This document shows positions 16,710 to 28,658 of a DNA stretch of 64,000 nucleotides, piece by piece. The stretch is from Phycisphaerae bacterium (GTDB lineage Bacteria > Planctomycetota > Phycisphaerae > UBA1845 > UTPLA1), in assembly GCA_035275405.1 (NCBI GenBank), contig DATEMU010000011.1, positions 87,831 through 151,830 on the forward strand. Direction: 5' to 3'. Both the position numbers and the translations under genes were made by a program. Each line of letters starts with the position of its first letter. Position 1 is the first letter of the stretch. The notes under the pieces are model-generated. The model made no database searches, was not told the DNA's origin, and saw only the letters and a program-made list of their open reading frames with translations.

Positions 16710-17828
16710 CTACCACGGATTGGTCACGTGGCAGGCGCGGCCAGTCTTTTCGACATAGTCCTGGTGGTAGTCCTCGGCGGCGTAAAAGGTCTTGGCCGGT
16801 TCGAGCTGGGTGACGATCTTGCGGCCTTTGAACCGGTCGGATTCCTGCAACTCCTTGATGAACGCCTCGGCCTCGCGGCGCTGCTCGTCGTTGACGTACC
16901 AGATACCGGATCGGTATTGCGCGCCGTAGTCCGGGCCCTGCCGATTCATTTGCGTCGGGTCGTGCATCTTGAAGAAGGCCTCCAGCAGGCGGCGGAACGT
17001 GATGCGTGACGGATCGTACACAACCTTGACAGTCTCGGCGTGACCGGTCGTGTCGGTGCAGACCTGCTTGTAGTCCGGGTTGTCTACGCGGCCCTGCATG
17101 TAGCCGCTGGCGGCGTCGAGGACGCCGGGGCCTTTCTGGAAGTAGTGTTCGAGCCCCCAGAAGCAGCCGCCGGCGAAGTAGGCGGTCTCGGTCTTCGCGG
17201 TCATTTTATCTCCCGTGGATGAGGTGCGCTGAGCCGGCCTGCTCTCGGGCGGCAGCTCCGCGCCCTTCTTGTAGAACTTGAGCGAGGCGGAGTTGAGGCA
17301 ATGACGCTCCCCCGTCGGCGGCGGACCATCCTCGAAAACGTGCCCGAGGTGCGCGGTGCAGCGGGCGCAGTTGATCTCGGTGCGGCTCATGCCGTGGCTG
17401 CGATCGGTCTTGCGGGCGACATGATCCTTGTCGAACTCCTTATAGAAACTGGGCCAGCCCGTGCCGGATTTGAACTTGTGGTCGCTGGCGAAGAGCGGAA
17501 GTCCGCAGACGACGCAGACGTACATGCCGTCCTCTTTGTTGTCGAGCAGCGTCCCGCAGAAGGGTCGCTCCGTGTCGGCGGATTGGGTAATGCGGAAGGC
17601 CTCGGGGTCAAGCTTCTTGGCGAGTGCGGCGACTTTGTCGCGCGGCAGCGGCGTGACGTCGTAACCGGAGGCGGAGGTTTTCGCGTTCATGGATGTTCTC
17701 ATCTCCCCTGATTGTTTGCCCGCAGACGGAGTACTGTCCGCATCGACCGACGCGGGATCGCAGCCGACGATGAGGCCACAAATTGTTAATACGAGCGCGG
17801 CAGAACTCCCGGCGGCGCGGATTCTCAT
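16710..17828 (-). CDS. Lipoprotein MsrB-MsrA fusion (methionine sulfoxide reductase)
   Basis: Starting at ATG 17828 (AGGAG 8 bases upstream) gives 372 residues. The N-terminus is a lipoprotein signal with lipobox LIVGC (Cys23). The MsrB domain (about 55-190) has both zinc CxxC pairs (105/108 and 154/157) and the catalytic Cys177 in RHCLNS. The MsrA domain (about 212-372) has GGCFWG with catalytic Cys222. MsrB reduces Met-R-sulfoxide and MsrA the S form, so the pair repairs both isomers. The lipoprotein signal puts it outside the cytoplasmic membrane. The order MsrB-MsrA is the reverse of the PilB type. Internal Met codons at 17690 and 17204 have Shine-Dalgarno-like sequences. Confidence 0.92.
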   Translation of the reverse strand: MRIRAAGSSAALVLTICGLIVGCDPASVDADSTPSAGKQSGEMRTSMNAKTSASGYDVTPLPRDKVAALAKKLDPEAFRITQSADTERPFCGTLLDNKEDGMYVCVVCGLPLFASDHKFKSGTGWPSFYKEFDKDHVARKTDRSHGMSRTEINCARCTAHLGHVFEDGPPPTGERHCLNSASLKFYKKGAELPPESRPAQRTSSTGDKMTAKTETAYFAGGCFWGLEHYFQKGPGVLDAASGYMQGRVDNPDYKQVCTDTTGHAETVKVVYDPSRITFRRLLEAFFKMHDPTQMNRQGPDYGAQYRSGIWYVNDEQRREAEAFIKELQESDRFKGRKIVTQLEPAKTFYAAEDYHQDYVEKTGRACHVTNPW

Positions 17829-18029
17829 GGCATGGGCTCCTGGAATAAGGCACTGCTCGCCGGAAGCCATGAGCGATCATAGCCAAGTCCGGGGCCGCCG
17901 AAAACCCGGGGTTCCCCCCGGGCGTCGGGCGGCTTCACGCAGCGTGTGCCTGACAACGCCTTAGATCGTACCAGACGCGGGGAGGTTACATCGTGAAACT
18001 CGTCAACACACCGAAAGGCTGAGTTTTTA

Positions 18030-21000
18030 TCATCGGCGGCGGAAGTATCTCATGGCGACCAACCCGCAAAAGGCGCCGAGGATGGCCATCGGGCAGCCGA
18101 GGCCGCAGAGGGACGACAGGAAAAACGACAGAATAGGGACGGAACAGAGATCAGAGGGCTGCGTTCCGCCGGCGGGGCCAAGGGCCGGAGCGCCAGGGTC
18201 CTGGATTGAACCATTGGCCGTCAGATCAGCATCGCCGCGCTGACCGTCGACGAAGTGCAGGGTGATCGTATGGCCGTTGATCTCCGCGCCGGTGGTGCCG
18301 TCGAAGAGGAACTCGTACCAGTGAGGCGCGGGCTGACCGGGCTCGGGGCCGAACTTCCAGTATGTGTTAATTTGTGCCTCGGGTGGGAGGTCGACGATGA
18401 CCTGCACCTGCGCGGCGGCACCGGCGGAGAATCCGTTAATCACATAGCTTAGGAAACCGGCGGGGAACTCGACGCCGGCGGGGGTGTCGTCGGGCGAGGG
18501 GTTTGACCCCGCGGAGACGGAGGCCAATTGCGACCCGGCGGGGGCGACGATGGTGACGTAATTGCCGTCCGCATTGGGAAGGGACGTGACATTTTCCTGT
18601 TGACTGTCGGGCACGCCGTCGTTGTTCCCATCACCGTTGTTGGGCGCGCCGTTTTCCATCTCCTCACTAACGCCGTCCTGATCGGTCGTCGGCGGCTCGG
18701 GTGAGCCACAGCCCGCCGTGCCGGGAGCGGTCTTGTTAGGGTCGTCCGGGCAACCGTCGGAGCTGTTGGGCGTCCCGTCGCCGTCTCGATCGGCGTCGAC
18801 GCAATCGGCCGTGTCGTCGTTATCGAGATCAGGGAAGCCTTCGTCCGCGCCGCCGGCGCAGTTGTTGTCCAGGCCGTCACAAACTTCCGCGACGCCGGGA
18901 TGAATGGCCGGGTTGGAATCGTCGCAATCGGTATTGACAGAGGCCTCCCCGACGTCCGTACAGTCGAGGTCGCCGGAATTCACCGTCGTGGTCGCGCCGA
19001 AGCCATCATCGTCCCCATCATTGAAACATGTTTCGCCGCCGCTGCAATCCTGGTCAATCTCGTCTCCGGCGATCTCCGCCGCGCCGGGATGTACGCTCGC
19101 CGCGGAGTCGTCGCAGTCATCGTCGTTGGCCGACTCGCCGGCATCCAGGCAATCGTCGTCCGCCGACACGACCGTCCCGGCCGAGCCAAACGTATCGCCG
19201 TCGCCGTCCACGAAGCACGAGATCGAATCGGAGCCGTTGCAGTCCTGATCGATCCCGTCGCCGACGATCTCCGTCGCGCCGGGGTGGATGGTGTCGTCGC
19301 CATCGTCGCAATCGTCGTCATTGGCCGACTCGCCCGTGTCAGTGCAATCGTTGTCTACCGAGGCCACGGTCGTCACACTACCGAATCCGTCCGTATCGCT
19401 GTCACCAAAGCACGTCTCGCCGCCACTGCAGTCCTGGTCGACGCCGTCACCCACTGTCTCCACAGCGCCGGGGTGGATTGTGGGCTCGGCGTCGTTGCAG
19501 TCCGCGTTGTTCGCTACATGGTTGGCAGGGGCCGCGCAGGCGTTCACCGCCGAGGCGGCTGCATCGCCGAAGGTGTCCCCGTCGATGTCGGGATAAAAGG
19601 CCGTCGTCACTCCGTCATCGATCTGGGTGTCGCAATCGTCGTCGATCTCGTTGCAGGTTTCGGCCGCACCGGGGTAAATATTGGGGTTGGCGTCATTGCA
19701 ATCGTCATCATTGTCCGACTCGCCCGCGTCGGTGCAGTCACCATCCGCCGATACGATGGTCGTTGTCGAACCGAACGTATCGCCGTCCCCATCCATGAAG
19801 CAGGACTGCGTGTCCACGCCGTTGCAGTCCTGATCGATTCCGTCGCCGACAATCTCCGTCGCGCCGGGGTGAATCGTGTCGTCGCCGTCGTTGCAATCGT
19901 CGCTGGTGGAGGACTCACCGACATCCGCGCAATCATCGTCCGCCGAGGCGGCCGTCGTCGGAGTGCCGAAGCCGTCGCCGTCGCCGTCCACATAACATAT
20001 TTCGGCGCCGGAGCAATCATCGTCGACGTCATTGCCGACGATCTCCATGGCCCCGGGATAGACCGAAGCGGCGGCATCGTTGCAGTCGGTGTCCACGGAG
20101 GACTCGCCGGCATCCGCGCAGTCGAGATCGGCGGAATTGACGGTCGAGGTCGTGCCGAAGCCGTCGCCGTCGGCATCGTGGTAGCACCGATCACCGCCGC
20201 TGCAGTCCTGGTCGATCCCGTCGTCGATGATTTCCGTTGCACCGGGGTGGATCGCAATGTCTGCGTCGTTGCAATCGGTGTTCACGGAGGACTCGTCGGC
20301 ATCCGCGCAATCGAGGTCGCCGGAATTGACGGTTGATGTCGTGCCAAATCCGTCGCCGTCGGTGTCGTTGAAACACTGTTCGGCGCCGTTGCAATCCTGG
20401 TCGATCCCGTCGCCGACGACTTCCGTTGCGCCGGGGTAGACCGCGGCGGCGGCATCGTTGCAATCGGTGTTCACGGAGGACTCGCTGGCATCCGCGCAGT
20501 CGAGGTCGGCGGAATTGACGGTCGATGTCGTGCCGAAGCCGTCGCCGTCGCCGTCGTTGTAGCACCGGTCGCCGCCGCTGCAGTCCTGGTCGATTCCGTC
20601 GCCCACAATTTCCGTCGCGCCGGGGTAGATATTCGGGTCATTGTCATTGCAGTCCGCAGGCGGCGATATGCCGTCCATATCGTCGTCGGGCGGGGCAAGT
20701 TCGTAGGCGCCCATGTCGTCGACGGGGCCCTGCGGGCGGGCGACGCCGCGCTGGTCGGTCGCGGGGGCAAACGATGCGCTGGCCGACTCCAACGCGGGGC
20801 TGGTCGCGCCCAGGGCATGCGTCGCGGTCGTCCCGGGGGCGTTGACCATCAGCGGCCCGAGAAGAGGGTTGACGTTGTTCTTGTCGGTCGGTTGGGTGAA
20901 GGTGGTTCCCGACGTGTCGCTGATGAGATTGAAGCCGCCGGAAGTCGGCGGGCGGGCGAAGTCGGCGTCCAGGGGATTGTTGAAGATGTTTCGGACCGTG

Positions 21001-21920
21001 CTGTTGGCGATGATGGTGTTGCGGACGGTGACGATGGGATCGCCGATGAAGTCGTTCTGTCCGATGTAGCCATAGCGATTGGAGGCGATGGTGACGTTGG
21101 TCAGGGTGCCGCCCGTCGCACCGCCGCCATAGTCGATGCCGCCGGTGAAGCCGCCTCCCGTGCCGTTACCGCTGAGGGTGCTGTTCGTGATGTTGCACGT
21201 GCCGGCGTTGACATCGACTCCGGTACCGGTGTGTCCGCTGACGGCGCTGCCGGTGATTGTGGCCGTGCGATAGTTCGTTCCGTCGGCCCCGTGAGTGATG
21301 CCGCTGCCGGTGTTGCCGGAGATAGTGGAGTTGGTGATGTTAAGGGTGCACTGGCTATAGAGGCCCGCGCCGGAACCGGACGTACTTCCGGAGAGGACGA
21401 CGTTATTCAAGTTGAGGGTGAGAAAGCGCGAACTGGCTTCGATGCCGCCACCGCGATTCGACGCGCCAAAAGTAGAGGTGTTTCCGCCCGTGATCGTGAC
21501 GTTGTTGATCGTTACGGTGGCGTCGGGAATGAGAATATCGACGGGCATGTGAAACACGCGGTGACCCAGACCCGCGGCGGAGATCGTCGTGGTGGAAGCG
21601 CCCGCGCCGTTGATGGTGAGTCCGCCGGTGGCGATATCCAAGTCTCCGATCGTCGCGTCAGTATCGCTCGTGCCGGAGGCGATGGTCAGCGCGTAGGCGC
21701 CGGATGGAAGGGTAATGATGTCCGCCCCGGCGGCGGCGTTGGCAGCGAGGATCGCCTCGCGGAGGGAACAATCGCCCATGTCGCACGTCCCTGGCACGGG
21801 GTCGTCGGTCCGGGTCACGTCGAAAGTCGCCGCGAAGGACCGCGCGGTCGCGACGGCGCTGAGAACGGCCACTAGGGGGAATGTGATTTTGGTTGGTCGG
21901 AAGGAAGCTCGATATCGCAT
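18030..21920 (-). CDS. Giant surface protein: beta-helix, MopRM repeats, C-terminal anchor
   Basis: ATG 21920 (GGGAG 9 bases upstream) gives 1296 residues. A signal peptide is followed by the CSLREAI motif and a right-handed beta-helix region rich in NxTxSGN turns. Ten units beginning D-C-N-D and containing PGATE and DxDGDxFG follow (18834-20654). They are long variants of the MopRM metal-binding motif (Cu-binding MopE type), each with about four Cys. Next are a thrombospondin type-3-like Asp/Asn stretch and a domain like choice-of-anchor U (SYVINGFSAGAAAQVQV). The protein ends in a hydrophobic helix and RRR, a sorting-type tail. It is likely an exported, Ca- or Cu-binding surface protein. 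The divergent neighbour is the ECF sigma gene. Confidence 0.9.
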   Translation of the reverse strand: MRYRASFRPTKITFPLVAVLSAVATARSFAATFDVTRTDDPVPGTCDMGDCSLREAILAANAAAGADIITLPSGAYALTIASGTSDTDATIGDLDIATGGLTINGAGASTTTISAAGLGHRVFHMPVDILIPDATVTINNVTITGGNTSTFGASNRGGGIEASSRFLTLNLNNVVLSGSTSGSGAGLYSQCTLNITNSTISGNTGSGITHGADGTNYRTATITGSAVSGHTGTGVDVNAGTCNITNSTLSGNGTGGGFTGGIDYGGGATGGTLTNVTIASNRYGYIGQNDFIGDPIVTVRNTIIANSTVRNIFNNPLDADFARPPTSGGFNLISDTSGTTFTQPTDKNNVNPLLGPLMVNAPGTTATHALGATSPALESASASFAPATDQRGVARPQGPVDDMGAYELAPPDDDMDGISPPADCNDNDPNIYPGATEIVGDGIDQDCSGGDRCYNDGDGDGFGTTSTVNSADLDCADASESSVNTDCNDAAAAVYPGATEVVGDGIDQDCNGAEQCFNDTDGDGFGTTSTVNSGDLDCADADESSVNTDCNDADIAIHPGATEIIDDGIDQDCSGGDRCYHDADGDGFGTTSTVNSADLDCADAGESSVDTDCNDAAASVYPGAMEIVGNDVDDDCSGAEICYVDGDGDGFGTPTTAASADDDCADVGESSTSDDCNDGDDTIHPGATEIVGDGIDQDCNGVDTQSCFMDGDGDTFGSTTTIVSADGDCTDAGESDNDDDCNDANPNIYPGAAETCNEIDDDCDTQIDDGVTTAFYPDIDGDTFGDAAASAVNACAAPANHVANNADCNDAEPTIHPGAVETVGDGVDQDCSGGETCFGDSDTDGFGSVTTVASVDNDCTDTGESANDDDCDDGDDTIHPGATEIVGDGIDQDCNGSDSISCFVDGDGDTFGSAGTVVSADDDCLDAGESANDDDCDDSAASVHPGAAEIAGDEIDQDCSGGETCFNDGDDDGFGATTTVNSGDLDCTDVGEASVNTDCDDSNPAIHPGVAEVCDGLDNNCAGGADEGFPDLDNDDTADCVDADRDGDGTPNSSDGCPDDPNKTAPGTAGCGSPEPPTTDQDGVSEEMENGAPNNGDGNNDGVPDSQQENVTSLPNADGNYVTIVAPAGSQLASVSAGSNPSPDDTPAGVEFPAGFLSYVINGFSAGAAAQVQVIVDLPPEAQINTYWKFGPEPGQPAPHWYEFLFDGTTGAEINGHTITLHFVDGQRGDADLTANGSIQDPGAPALGPAGGTQPSDLCSVPILSFFLSSLCGLGCPMAILGAFCGLVAMRYFRRR
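18834..20654 (-). repeat. Ten tandem MopRM-like coding repeats (about 190 bp each)
   Basis: The coding repeats are about 63 codons each and keep the frame D-C-N-D...PGA-x-E...D-x-D...C-x-D-x-D-x-D-G-F/T-G...D-C. Unit 6 is a shorter canonical form (ETCNEIDDDCDTQIDDG), unlike the other nine, and unit 10 is truncated. Neighbouring units are similar at the DNA level, implying recent duplication and possible copy-number change. Confidence 0.85.
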
Positions 21921-21970: not shown

Positions 21971-22000
21971 GTGTACCCCTGGACAGGTGGGTTCTCACAC
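21971..22000 (-). promoter_or_regulatory. Candidate ECF-type promoter of the surface protein gene
   Basis: On the minus strand GTGTGAGAAC (22000-21991) is followed after 15 bases by TACAC (21975-21971). The same 10-mer with the same 15-base gap to TA sits on the plus strand at 22059-22088. GAAC-type -35 elements are typical for ECF sigma factors. Confidence 0.6.
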
Positions 22001-22058
22001 TGAAAATGACACCGATTCAACGGATTTGGAGCGGTCGGCGCGAGGATCGGCCCGCATG

Positions 22059-22088
22059 GTGTGAGAACGCGCCTTCGGATGGGTATCC
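22059..22088 (+). promoter_or_regulatory. Candidate ECF-type promoter of the sigma/kinase genes
   Basis: GTGTGAGAAC (22059-22068), then 15 bases, then TATCC (22084-22088), about 95 bp before the sigma factor start. It mirrors the element driving the divergent surface protein, so the sigma factor may control itself and its neighbour. Confidence 0.6.
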
Positions 22089-22182
22089 GAGGAGGAAATG
22101 AGCCCCGGCACGCCCGATGGGTCAAAAATGAACAGACCGGCACAGATTGGTAAGATGGACGTCGCGGGAGGACGGCGCGCGC

Positions 22183-22758
22183 GTGGACACGACCCATCCC
22201 AGTCTGTTGCTGCGTTTGAAAGATCATCGGGACGCGGCGGCGTGGCAGGTGTTCGACGACATCTACCGGCCGATGATGGAGCGGTTCGCGCTGGTCCGCG
22301 GGCTCGCCCCTGCGGATGCCGAGGATGTCGTCCAGCAGTGCATGGCGGCGCTCGCGGATCACATTCGATCGTTTGAATACGACCCCGCGAAGGGCCGCTT
22401 CAAGTCCTGGTTGCGGACGATGGTGAACAACAAGGTGCGCAACTTCGTGCGCGACCGGAGGGAAGTGGCGGGCGACAGCGGCCCGTTTCGGGACTTGGCT
22501 TCGCCGGAAGCGTCGGCGGAGGAAGTATTCGAAAAGCTGTGGAAGCAGGAGCACCTGTGGCATTGCCTGCGACGGATCGAGGCGCAAGTGGACGCGACGA
22601 CCTTCACCGCCTTTCGGCTTTTTGTGCTGGAACAGCGGCCGGTCGAGGAGGTCAGCGCGGCATCGGGCCTGTCGGCGAACAACGTGTACACGATCAAGTG
22701 GCGACTGACGCAGAAAGTCGCGGAAATGATGGCCGAGTTGGTGGGCGACGACGGGTGA
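22183..22758 (+). CDS. ECF-type RNA polymerase sigma factor
   Basis: Starting at GTG 22183 (GGGAGG about 11 bases upstream) gives 191 residues beginning VDTTHPSLLLRLKD, the usual opening of planctomycete ECF sigma factors. Region 2 (WQVFDDIYRPMMERF...DAEDVVQQCMAALADHI) and its KSWLRTMVNNKVRNFVRDR follow. Region 4 is around ATTFTAFRLFVLEQRPVEEVSAASGLSANNVYTIKWRL. The ATG 22147 is in frame but has no ribosome site. The kinase gene follows after 4 bp, so the two are co-expressed; such sigma/kinase pairs suggest control by phosphorylation or sequestration. Confidence 0.87.
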   Translation: MDTTHPSLLLRLKDHRDAAAWQVFDDIYRPMMERFALVRGLAPADAEDVVQQCMAALADHIRSFEYDPAKGRFKSWLRTMVNNKVRNFVRDRREVAGDSGPFRDLASPEASAEEVFEKLWKQEHLWHCLRRIEAQVDATTFTAFRLFVLEQRPVEEVSAASGLSANNVYTIKWRLTQKVAEMMAELVGDDG

Positions 22759-22762
22759 GTCA

Positions 22763-25345
22763 ATGGCGGGCTGTCTGAACGAGACGGACCTGCTGCACTT
22801 TCACGCGCAGCAGCTGGAGAAGGCCGAGCGGGTCCGAATAGAGGAGCATCTCTCGTCGTGCGCGGCGTGCGCGGAGCGCGACGCGGCGATGGTGCGTCGG
22901 CACGAAAGCTGGCTGCAACAGCTTCGGGAAGCTGGTCCGCCGCTTCGAAGGACCGCGGAGGGGACGATTCCGCGGGCGATCGCACCGGGGGCGATCTCGG
23001 GATACGAGATCGTCGAAGAGATCAGCCGCGGGGGACAGGGGATTGTCTATCGCGCGATTCAGAAGTCCACCAAGCGCGAGGTCGCGTTGAAGGTCTTGCG
23101 CGAGGGTCCGTTCGCATCGCGGGAGGCGCGGAGGCGGTTTGAGCGGGAGGTGGAGCTGGTCGCGGGATTGCGGCACCCCAACATCGTGGCGGTCTTCGAC
23201 TCGGGCGTGACAGCGGACGGCCGGCATTACTGCGTGATGGACTATGTGCGTGGCGCGCGGCTGGACCGGTATGTGCGGGAGGGCGGATTGGCATTGGACG
23301 ATGTGTTCCGGTTGTTTGCCACCGTCTGCGATGCGGTGAATTTTGCCCATCAGCGCGGGGTGATCCATCGCGATTTGAAGCCGTCGAACATCCTCGTCGA
23401 AGTGGGCGGAGAGCCGAAAGTACTGGATTTCGGCCTGGCCAAGCAGACCGGCACAATCGATGACAAACTGGTGACGGAGACGCAGATGGTCGCGGGGACA
23501 CTGCCCTATCTATCGCCGGAGCAGGCGCGGGGGCGCGTCGACGAGGTGGATATTCGCAGCGACGTGTATGCGCTGGGCGTGGTGTTGTACGAGTTGATCA
23601 CGGGGCGGTTGCCGTATCGAGTCGAGGGGGATGTTCCGACGGCGCTCCGCACCATCGCGGAGACGCCGCCTTCGCCGCCGAGCACGATCAGCGACCGGGG
23701 CGATTCGATTTCGATCGGCCACATCGACGACGAGGTCGGGACGATACTGCTCAAGGCGCTCTCCAAGGAGCGCGAACGTCGCTATCAGAGCGCGGGGGAC
23801 CTGGCGCGTGATCTTCGACATTACCTGGCGGGCGAACCGATCGAGGCCAAGCGGGACAGCCATTGGTACGTCCTGAAGAAGTCATTGCGGCGACATCGCG
23901 CGGCGGTCGCGGTCAGCGTGGCATTCGCCCTGCTCGTCATTTCGGCGACGATCAGCCTGGCGATCCTGTACGGCCGTCAATCGGGCCTGCTGGCGCAAGT
24001 GCAACAACAGAAGGGGCTGGCCGAGGACGCCGAGCACCGGGCCCGCCAGCGCTTTGAGGACCTGCGCGGCCTGGCCGGCACCGTCATCACAGAGTTGGAC
24101 GATCGCGTGCGTTACCTGTCGGGATCGACGCCGGCGCGAGAGTTGCTCGTCAAGACAGGTCTGGAGTATCTGAACCGCCTGGCGTCGACGACGGCGGAGG
24201 ACGATTGGCAAACGCGGGCGGAAATGGGGACGGCGTTTTTCAAGTTGGGAGATGTGCAGGGCGATCCCGACGTCCCCAACCTCGGCGATCCGGAAGGCGC
24301 GTTGGAGAGCTATCGACGCGGGTTGGCGCATGTGGAGGCCGCGGCGCGGGGATTGCCGAACGATGCCGCGCGGCACCGGGCGCTGGCGACGGCGTACAAC
24401 CGGATCGGGCGGCTGCTGAGCGCCATGGGCCGCGAAGGAGAAGCGCGGGAGCATTACGATCGGGCGCAGGCGGTACTCGAACGACTGATTGCGACCCGCC
24501 CGGACGATGTCGATCTTCAGCGCGATCTGACATTCAACGTTCAACAGATAGCGTATCAACATCGGGTCGCGGGGCGGCTGGCCGAGGCCCTGGAGATTTA
24601 CCGGAGGGTCCTCGCCCTGTTGGAGCAGGATGCGACGGATCCGCCGGAGTTGCACGGGGTGTCGGCGACTCGGGACCAGATCGGGCGCATCCTGAGCGAA
24701 CAGGGGAAGCTGGGCGAGGCCTTTGAGGAGCATCGGCGGTGCGCGGATTTGTTGGAGCGGGCCGTCGCGCTGGCCCCCAACGCGGCGCCGTATCAGCGGG
24801 ATTTGGCGGTGGCATACGATCGGATGGGACTCATCGAGCAACAACGGGGGCACGCACCCGCCGCGCTGGAACACTTGAAGAGATCACTGGAGATCAGTCG
24901 GCGCCTCGGCGAGACCGATGTGGCCGATCACAAGGCGCTGGCCAACGTGGCCGCGGCGCATTGTCGGATTGGGGAGATTGAACTGGCCGCCGGCGATCAC
25001 CCGGCGGCGCGGCGAAGCTTCGATCATTATTACGAGGCGGCTAAAAAACTGGTGGCGATGACTGGCAACAGCGCCGCGGCAGAGCGCGATTTGGCAGTAT
25101 CGCATTACAAGCTGGCGGAATGGCACACCGCCGAAGGCAAGAGAGCGGAAGCCACGTCCGCCGATCGGCTCGCGAGTTGGCGCGAAGCGCGGAAACAACT
25201 GGAGGCGTGTGAAGCCGTATTCAGACAGCTAAGCGAGCGCGGCAGGCTGGCGGCGGCGGATGCGAAGGTGCTTGACGAATTGGCGGCGGAGATCGCGGAG
25301 TGTGACGGAAAGACCGCGACGTTGGAGGCGGCGGACCGGAAATAA
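22763..25345 (+). CDS. Zinc-finger Ser/Thr protein kinase with TPR sensor part
   Basis: The 860-residue protein starts with a zf-HC2-like motif (H29-x3-C33-x2-C36), the fold used by ZAS anti-sigma factors. A complete Hanks-type kinase domain (about 81-355) follows, with a glycine loop SRGGQGIVY, VALK (Lys110), HRDLKPSN (Asp204), DFG (222-224) and SPEQA. A single membrane helix spans about 380-403, and TPR-like helices fill about 430-840 outside the membrane. This would let an outside signal act on the ECF sigma factor encoded 4 bp upstream, inferred from the domain order. It ends 29 bp from the convergent pepD stop. Confidence 0.9.
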   Translation: MAGCLNETDLLHFHAQQLEKAERVRIEEHLSSCAACAERDAAMVRRHESWLQQLREAGPPLRRTAEGTIPRAIAPGAISGYEIVEEISRGGQGIVYRAIQKSTKREVALKVLREGPFASREARRRFEREVELVAGLRHPNIVAVFDSGVTADGRHYCVMDYVRGARLDRYVREGGLALDDVFRLFATVCDAVNFAHQRGVIHRDLKPSNILVEVGGEPKVLDFGLAKQTGTIDDKLVTETQMVAGTLPYLSPEQARGRVDEVDIRSDVYALGVVLYELITGRLPYRVEGDVPTALRTIAETPPSPPSTISDRGDSISIGHIDDEVGTILLKALSKERERRYQSAGDLARDLRHYLAGEPIEAKRDSHWYVLKKSLRRHRAAVAVSVAFALLVISATISLAILYGRQSGLLAQVQQQKGLAEDAEHRARQRFEDLRGLAGTVITELDDRVRYLSGSTPARELLVKTGLEYLNRLASTTAEDDWQTRAEMGTAFFKLGDVQGDPDVPNLGDPEGALESYRRGLAHVEAAARGLPNDAARHRALATAYNRIGRLLSAMGREGEAREHYDRAQAVLERLIATRPDDVDLQRDLTFNVQQIAYQHRVAGRLAEALEIYRRVLALLEQDATDPPELHGVSATRDQIGRILSEQGKLGEAFEEHRRCADLLERAVALAPNAAPYQRDLAVAYDRMGLIEQQRGHAPAALEHLKRSLEISRRLGETDVADHKALANVAAAHCRIGEIELAAGDHPAARRSFDHYYEAAKKLVAMTGNSAAAERDLAVSHYKLAEWHTAEGKRAEATSADRLASWREARKQLEACEAVFRQLSERGRLAAADAKVLDELAAEIAECDGKTATLEAADRK

Positions 25346-26972: not shown

Positions 26973-28658
26973 ATTATCGCAGCGACCACCGAGCTTGAAC
27001 GCGTCGTCATCTACCACGAGGCCACGAAGCATCATCCGCAGCGTTACGCGCGGAGCTTGGGCTATCTGGATTGGGCGACGCAGCCGAACCCCTTTCGACG
27101 ATATGACGGTGCGCCGCTGACGCCGCTGCTCATCGGTCCGCGCCATCAGGAACCGGCGTATGACTCGCTGTTTACGACCGACGGCATCGCCCCTCAGCCG
27201 GTCACGCGGCGGACGCTGTCGGCGTTCTTCGAGTGCTCGCTGGCGTTGTCAGCGTGGAAGGCGTACGGCGAATCGACGTGGGCGCTGCGCTGCAATCCCT
27301 CCAGTGGCAATCTGCATCCGACGGAGGGTTATCTGCTTTGTGGCGGCGTAGAGGGTATCGGCGAGCAGCCGGCGGCTTACCACTATGCGGCGAAGGAGCA
27401 CGCGCTGGAACGGCGGCATGTCATCGACGCGGCGGCGTGGGCCGATCTCGTGGCCGCACTGGGCAGCGAAGTCTTTTTTGTGGGGCTCAGCTCCATCCTC
27501 TGGCGGGAGGCGTGGAAATACGGCGAGCGGGCCTTCCGGTATTGCCAGCAGGATACCGGTCATGCACTGGCTTGTTTGCGATTCGCGGCGGCGATGCTCG
27601 GTTGGCGGATGACATTGCTTGAAGACCTCGGAGACGACGAGGTTGCCCGTTTGCTGGGGCTTGATCGCGTGGGGGACTTTTCCGGCGCGGAGCGGGAGGA
27701 ACCGGAGCTTTTCGCCCTCGTGTCGGCCAAGCCGGACGCAAATCCTCGCGGCGTTCTTACGCTCGATCCCGACATTATCGCACGGGTTGCCGCGGGTCCG
27801 TGGGAAGGCCGGGCCAATCGCCTCAGCTCCGATCACGTCCCGTGGGAAATCATTGATATGGTGACCGACGCGACAAGAAAACCGCGCACGCCCATCAACG
27901 GAGAGGTCATTCATCCGGGCCGCCTCCCGGCAGCCGCTCAGAGCGCGGGGACGGTACCCCTCGCGCGCGAGGTCATCCTCAAACGCCGCAGCGCCACGGA
28001 TTTTGACGGTCAAACGTCGATTCCCCGCGACGTCTTCTACTCCATGCTCGCGCGCGTAATGCCGACGGACGCGGCGCCGTTCGACGCGATCTCGTGGCCG
28101 CCCGCGATTCACCTGCTGATGTTTGTGCATCTCGTCGAAGGTTTGTCGCCGGGCCTCTACGCCCTAGTCCGCGATCCGGCGAAGGTGGACTCGCTTCGCG
28201 CCGCAACGAATCCCGATTTCGCGTGGACACTGGCGAGCGACGCGGCGCCGGGTCTGCCGCTCTACCCGCTCAGGGTGGCTGATTGCCGCCGGGGGGCGGC
28301 GCAGCTCAGCCTGGGACAGGCGATCGCCGGGGACGGTGCCTTTTCGTTCGGGATGGTCGCGGAGTTCGAGCCGTCGCTGCGGCGCTACGGGCCGTGGTTC
28401 TACCGGCGGCTGTTCTGGGAGGCGGGCATGATCGGGCAAACGCTGTACCTCGAGGCCGAGGCCGCGGCAATGCGCCTGGGCAACACGATGCGGGCGACCG
28501 GCATCGGCGCGTACTTCGACGATCCCGTCCACGAGGTCTTCGGCCTGTCGGGCCGGGAGTTTCAGAGTATGTATCACTTCACGATGGGCGGAGCGGTGGA
28601 TGACCCGCGCCTGACCACCCGTCCGCCGTACGGCGAAGCGGTCGCGCAGCGCGTATGA
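26973..28658 (+). CDS. SagB/ThcOx family oxidoreductase, apparently without a standard start codon
   Basis: Two nitroreductase-like flavin domains are fused. The first carries the CNPSSGNLHPTEGYLL motif that is a hallmark of SagB/ThcOx; the second begins near VILKRRSATDFDG. The family's usual N-terminus (YHEATKHHPQRYARSLGYLDW) is encoded in frame upstream of TTG 27057, with no ATG, GTG or TTG between the in-frame TAA at 26964 and that point. Candidates are ATT 26973 and ATC 26976, behind AAGGTG (26965-26970). TTG 27057 would cut off the conserved part. Family members oxidise thiazoline/oxazoline in RiPPs, but no precursor peptide or YcaO gene is near, so the substrate is unknown. Confidence 0.8.
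   Translation: MIAATTELERVVIYHEATKHHPQRYARSLGYLDWATQPNPFRRYDGAPLTPLLIGPRHQEPAYDSLFTTDGIAPQPVTRRTLSAFFECSLALSAWKAYGESTWALRCNPSSGNLHPTEGYLLCGGVEGIGEQPAAYHYAAKEHALERRHVIDAAAWADLVAALGSEVFFVGLSSILWREAWKYGERAFRYCQQDTGHALACLRFAAAMLGWRMTLLEDLGDDEVARLLGLDRVGDFSGAEREEPELFALVSAKPDANPRGVLTLDPDIIARVAAGPWEGRANRLSSDHVPWEIIDMVTDATRKPRTPINGEVIHPGRLPAAAQSAGTVPLAREVILKRRSATDFDGQTSIPRDVFYSMLARVMPTDAAPFDAISWPPAIHLLMFVHLVEGLSPGLYALVRDPAKVDSLRAATNPDFAWTLASDAAPGLPLYPLRVADCRRGAAQLSLGQAIAGDGAFSFGMVAEFEPSLRRYGPWFYRRLFWEAGMIGQTLYLEAEAAAMRLGNTMRATGIGAYFDDPVHEVFGLSGREFQSMYHFTMGGAVDDPRLTTRPPYGEAVAQRV

Follow-up and report, generated by a model that had tools for sequence, protein, structure and literature searches.

A conserved, probable ECF promoter pair between a surface-protein gene and a kinase-linked sigma factor gene in a Phycisphaerae bacterium

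Kinase-linked ECF sigma factors are numerous in Planctomycetota. In ECF43, represented by EcfP/PknT, and in the Planctomycetota groups ECF59, ECF61, ECF62, and ECF217, the sigma gene is followed by a gene for a Ser/Thr kinase, and the locus described here shares this gene order and, with the latter groups, its phylum. Sigma factors of the EcfP type are without DAED and gain the charge through phosphorylation, according to the available text of PMC8103513. The kinase-linked groups besides ECF43 keep DAED or a similar sequence, may work differently, and still need characterization, as described in the accessible part of PMC8999054, which also presents two zinc anti-sigma factors that release their sigma factors upon phosphorylation by PknB. 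The locus likewise resembles SigE/ChrR and SigW/RsiW, with their class I zinc anti-sigma factors, in having a two-domain sigma factor, a likely autoregulated two-box promoter, and a next gene whose product carries an anti-sigma-like domain with the H-x3-C-x2-C motif.

The window analyzed here, a 64,000-nucleotide stretch of DNA from a Phycisphaerae bacterium, contains a sigma factor gene at 22183..22758 on the plus strand. The product scored 58.1 bits against TIGR02937, the model of the ECF superfamily, for which the cut-off is 42.9, and its best match in the PDB was SigE/RpoE; Pfam listed region 2 alone at an E value of 0.001. The frame is open back to a TTG at 22147, and the start is most likely the GTG at 22183, because the MDTT start shared in the clade alignment discussed below falls there. 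Immediately downstream, at 22763..25345 on the plus strand, lies a gene for a membrane Ser/Thr kinase with a zinc anti-sigma-like N-terminus (about 22763-22933), a kinase domain containing HRDLK and DFG, one hydrophobic helix near residues 384-402, and TPR repeats. Divergent from the sigma gene, at 18030..21920 on the minus strand, is a surface-protein gene whose start was placed by eye at the ATG at 21920-21918. Its product contains ten MopE motifs, as anticipated when it was first described as a ten-repeat protein, together with choice-of-anchor Q and U domains, and by eye it ends in a Cys motif, a hydrophobic stretch, and an Arg-rich C-terminus; no MYXO-CTERM model was listed for it at an E value of 0.001. 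Neighbors of the locus include a fused methionine sulfoxide reductase B/A at 16710-17870 and a match to the SagB-family peptide dehydrogenases (TIGR03605) at 27057-28658.

The gap between the surface-protein and sigma genes contains the sequence GTGTGAGAAC-N15-TA twice, as elements of 27 nt each that point outward and so face the surface-protein gene on one side and the sigma and kinase genes on the other. The plus-strand element reads GTGTGAGAAC GCGCCTTCGGATGGG TA and occupies 22059-22085, and the minus-strand element reads GTGTGAGAAC CCACCTGTCCAGGGG TA and occupies 22000-21974. The first-pass annotation had recognized the two identical outward elements and their equal spacing, both of which were recovered, while its ends at 22088 and 21971 overshoot by 3. 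Beyond the ten bases of GTGTGAGAAC, the final five bases of both elements are also the same, GGGTA, and the intervening bases differ. We read the plus element (22059..22085) as a likely ECF promoter for the sigma/kinase operon, with a candidate -35 of TGTGAGA at 22060-22066 and a -10 of GGGTA at 22081-22085. The minus element (21974..22000) would be the corresponding promoter for the divergent surface-protein gene, with the -35 at 21999-21993 and the -10 at 21978-21974. The minus element lies about 54 nt from the surface-protein start and the plus element 97 nt from the sigma start. Across the whole 5.29-Mb genome, GTGTGAGAAC-N10..16-GGTA is confined to these two gap sites. Right after the plus element, at 22090-22100, the sequence AGGAGG-AA-ATG has the look of a strong ribosome site with a start whose frame is not that of sigma.

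Relatives of the sigma factor were present in all 101 genomes searched, and the 11 named loci retrieved with the clade alignment all came from metagenome-assembled or uncultured Planctomycetota, several of them labeled Phycisphaerae. We analyzed 37 sigma genes, comprising 30 loci (L003-L032) and 7 further paralogues, and a maximum-likelihood tree placed 12 of them in one clade with a support of 100/99. The genomes bearing this clade are that of the window (G000) and G001, G006, G007, G012, G014, G032, G035, G038, G062, G064, and G086, and the sigma proteins of the element-bearing relatives are 52-60% identical to that of the window. When a class-wide set of 397 genomes was searched, in which G086 was not drawn, the top of the matches listed consisted of the known clade members, after which scores fell from 321 to 287 bits.

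With up to one mismatch allowed, all 12 clade members had TGTGAGA-N15-[G/T]GTA in the 300 bp preceding the sigma gene, and such a promoter-like element in front of the sigma gene itself is consistent with autoregulation. An outward copy, again with up to one mismatch, was present in 10 of the 12; of the other two, G062 has a copy shortened by one base, and G035 lacks one altogether. The upstream neighbor in G035 is apparently a 608-aa frame on the sigma gene's own strand, and minus-strand frames of 511 and 204 aa are also there. Outside the clade, the sigma-side element was found at none of 25 sigma genes, one outward match with one mismatch was seen at the G013 sigma gene, and the reversed pattern was found beside none of the 37. 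A spacing of 15 accounted for 12 of 12 sites on the plus side and 10 of 12 on the minus side, as against no more than 2 and 3, respectively, at any of 12 other spacings, and dinucleotide shuffles predict 0.03 of 12. The relaxed motif was fixed after the relatives had been seen; the constant spacing and the contrast between clades serve as safeguards. The elements, fixed in spacing and orientation, are thus restricted to one clade among the 37 sigma genes, and we infer that the sigma factor of that clade binds them.

The -35 had originally been proposed to be of a GAAC-containing type. GAGAAC occurs at only 2 of the 12 plus sites, which rules out GAAC as the core, and the conserved core is TGTGAGA. 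The clade therefore departs from the AAC-type -35, which the available text of PMC8103513 gives as the hallmark of the first-studied ECF factors, no longer defining for ECF factors. In region 4.2, the clade sigma factors all read TIKWR (12 of 12), a sequence found in none of the 25 others. Two more distant relatives outside the clade, L180 and L181, also have TIKWR and are without the element, which counts against a simple recognition code. Their nearest matches, each with three mismatches, are CGTGAGA-N15-GTCA on the plus side and TGTGAGT-N15-GTCA on the minus side, perhaps a related promoter with another -10.

In a sister clade, whose members read HKAKYR or HKSKYR, GGCAGA[A/T]T was found together with the same -10, in the same frame, near 3 of the 4 members, a pattern seen after the fact. 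Searched as the 25-nt GGCAGAWT-N12-GKGTA, it had 23 sites across 17 family genomes, in which the reversed pattern had 0, and it was absent from the genome of the window. The loci concerned (L212-L234, in G016, G006, G005, G001, G015, and others) lie beside paralogous sigma genes; several of the sites precede exported-looking proteins, and others do not. These observations suggest that parallel sigma paralogues use different -35 words.

Searching the genome of the window for copies before other genes yielded, for GTGTGAGA-N14-G[G/T]GTA, three copies in 5.29 Mb, namely the two gap elements and one distant site. This third site (G000:C1:332878-332904) lies 36 nt upstream of the start of a gene whose 224-aa product has, by eye, a lipoprotein-type signal. 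With one mismatch allowed, the same genome had 20 sites against 58 reversed, and weaker targets there are therefore indistinguishable from background. Among 114 genomes of the order, 28 strict sites were found versus 16 reversed. The excess came from the 12 sigma-bearing genomes, with 21 sites versus 2 reversed, as compared to 7 versus 14 in the other 102. Together with the restriction to the clade, this excess supports the earlier proposal that the sigma factor drives both itself and the divergent surface protein.

Twelve of these 21 strict sites are in the sigma gap and 9 are distant. By eye, the gene that follows the site has a lipoprotein-like start in 7 of the 9 distant cases and another signal-like start in 1, that of G032. 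At the distant site in G007:C451 there is no clear gene within 400 nt, and the next frame resembles, by eye, a nucleotide-sugar dehydrogenase. The distant targets of G014 and G006 are homologous to that of G038 (31% over 205 aa). The distant target at G035:C10 is 50% identical over two stretches to the product of the gene divergent from sigma in G038, and this family has therefore kept the element both beside sigma (G038) and far from it (G035). The lipoprotein P0004 has homologues in G013 and G016, near which no element was found; in all, its homologues occur in 5 of the 114 genomes, too narrow a distribution for a test of conservation.

Other explanations of the pair were weighed against these data. 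The two words make an inverted repeat across the gap, and TGTGA resembles a CRP/FNR half site, as would be expected of an operator at which a dimeric transcription factor uses the two identical words as half sites to control both divergent genes. An operator would, however, hardly account for the second box, [G/T]GTA, which accompanies every word at one fixed spacing, for the single, uninverted copies that precede the distant genes, or for the variation among species in the distance between the two copies, and we regard it as very unlikely. The elements might also be ECF promoters read mainly by another sigma factor of the genome rather than by the neighboring one. Paralogous ECF factors can share promoters, and the genome has 11 matches to the window's sigma factor. 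Against this, two other sigma genes of the genome that were examined (at G000:C8 and G000:C15) have no element upstream, the element follows the clade of the neighboring sigma factor, and the 102 genomes without that clade show no excess of sites; the probability we would give this alternative is slim.

That the match arose by chance, or is the remnant of a local inverted duplication, might be suggested by the presence of just two copies in the window. No element of the GTGTGAGAAC type was found in 100 dinucleotide shuffles of the window, however, and the pair has been kept in relatives whose sigma proteins have diverged to the 52-60% identity given above, with the bases between the boxes varying and the spacing constant. 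We consider this origin scarcely credible. It is most likely that the adjoining ECF sigma factor recognizes both 27-base elements as its -35/-10 promoters.

A divergent partner was present at 11 of the 12 clade loci, and we scanned 10 of these proteins, the window's and nine others, leaving out the short frame in G006. Choice-of-anchor U was found in 7 of the 10. The outer parts vary, with MopE in the partners of the window and G001, HYR in those of G007 and G014, HAF repeats in those of G001 and G012, and beta-helix or thrombospondin-3 repeats in those of G032 and G062. The partner in G086 has choice-of-anchor X, and no anchor model was found in those of G064 and G038. Most partners have the Cys motif, hydrophobic stretch, and Arg-rich C-terminal end in common with the MYXO-CTERM proteins of Myxococcota, as these are described in the available text of PMC11980579. 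The present locus differs in belonging to Planctomycetota, and of the proteins scanned, that of G014 alone exceeded the cut-off of TIGR03382 (17.4 bits versus 15.85).

Choice-of-anchor U gave 22 matches, of which 8 are beside the clade's sigma genes. Of the 14 genes away from sigma, 13 were searched (that in G043 was left out), and none had the element nearby at up to one mismatch; contig ends truncate several of these stretches, and G006:C150 possibly represents the end of the G006 divergent gene, split off from the rest. Choice-of-anchor U was accordingly ruled out as a mark of the regulon, since anchor-U genes far from sigma without the element indicate that the domain alone does not define it. 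At G010:C23 (L155 4371-5249), a choice-of-anchor U gene has as its neighbor, on the opposite strand, the gene for a kinase 46% identical to that of the window, and no sigma match was found in this 11-kb stretch.

Nearer to the sigma gene, a sigma-70-like -10 hexamer, TAAGAT, is found at 22151..22156 on the plus strand, 32 nt before the sigma start, with no convincing -35, and may represent a basal promoter. All 12 clade loci have such a hexamer 23-43 nt ahead of the sigma start, compared to 2.6 expected from shuffles, and 19 of the 25 loci outside the clade have one, compared to 7.3 expected. A consistent -35 to accompany it was not found across the 12 clade loci. Read most simply, this layout combines a basal promoter with one that is autoregulated.

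The first 80 residues of 18 kinases were compared, and the C, H, C, and C of the H-x3-C-x2-C class I zinc anti-sigma motif were invariant in all 18, with zf-HC2 matching 17. The best PDB sequence matches of the N-terminal profile were ChrR (E value 4.9e-5), DdvA, RslA, and RsiW. A predicted model of this N-terminus has three helices with a pLDDT of 82, and in a Foldseek search with it anti-sigma chains ranked 1-6, at E values of 1.0-3.1, none of which is significant. At the DAED position, the clade sigma factors have DAED in 8 cases, DADD in 1, DAEE in 1, and AAEE in 2. Acidic residues are therefore present in 12 of 12, unlike EcfP, and the ECF43-type mechanism is not expected here. Phospho-activation of this kind was rejected on these residues, and with the anti-sigma-like N-terminus of the kinase considered as well, the EcfP model fits poorly. 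The role of anti-sigma factor at this locus may fall to the kinase itself.

Most likely, the ECF sigma factor encoded at the locus is autoregulated and controls a small envelope regulon. The sigma-70-like -10 nearer the sigma gene would provide basal sigma factor and kinase. The kinase is predicted to hold the sigma factor at the membrane because its N-terminal domain resembles zinc anti-sigma factors, and it would do so until a signal reached the TPR part. The signal would then change or phosphorylate the kinase and release the sigma factor. Once free, the sigma factor would activate the operon that encodes it on the right, the divergent surface-protein gene on the left, and the distant predicted lipoprotein gene, raising sigma factor, kinase, surface protein, and lipoprotein together. 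This restraint is predicted from resemblance. As a joint explanation, a promoter pair read by the adjoining sigma factor, a basal promoter, and a kinase restraining the sigma factor appear to us highly probable.

A more far-reaching version is put forward tentatively, and we would not be surprised to see it fail. A single membrane receptor, combining the zinc anti-sigma domain, the Ser/Thr kinase, the membrane helix, and extracytoplasmic TPR repeats, would hold the sigma factor, and phosphorylation inside this receptor would free it. Sensor, sigma factor, lipoproteins, and the large anchored surface protein, its outer part swapped between species, would form a closed loop at the cell surface. 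Paralogous sigma factors with different -35 words (TGTGAGA, GGCAGA[A/T]T) and the same -10 would run parallel, insulated envelope regulons.

A divergent, likely autoregulated ECF promoter pair, conserved and specific to a clade, is ordinary in principle; the anti-sigma-like kinase and the small envelope regulon are the unusual aspects. In the literature searched, as far as its texts were available, we found no instance of the motif and no kinase to which a zinc anti-sigma domain is fused, and nothing wider is claimed. At this locus, a kinase-linked sigma factor can be assigned a defined promoter and a small set of targets, and the kinase that accompanies it bears an anti-sigma-like domain. The locus makes kinase-linked control of a sigma factor directly testable, both in the binding of sigma by the N-terminus and in its release by phosphorylation. 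In contrast to SigE/ChrR and SigW/RsiW, the locus has its anti-sigma-like domain at the N-terminal end of a Ser/Thr kinase, which also contains a membrane helix and TPR repeats. Compared to the PknB case, as given in the accessible part of PMC8999054, the kinase and the anti-sigma-like domain would here be one protein.
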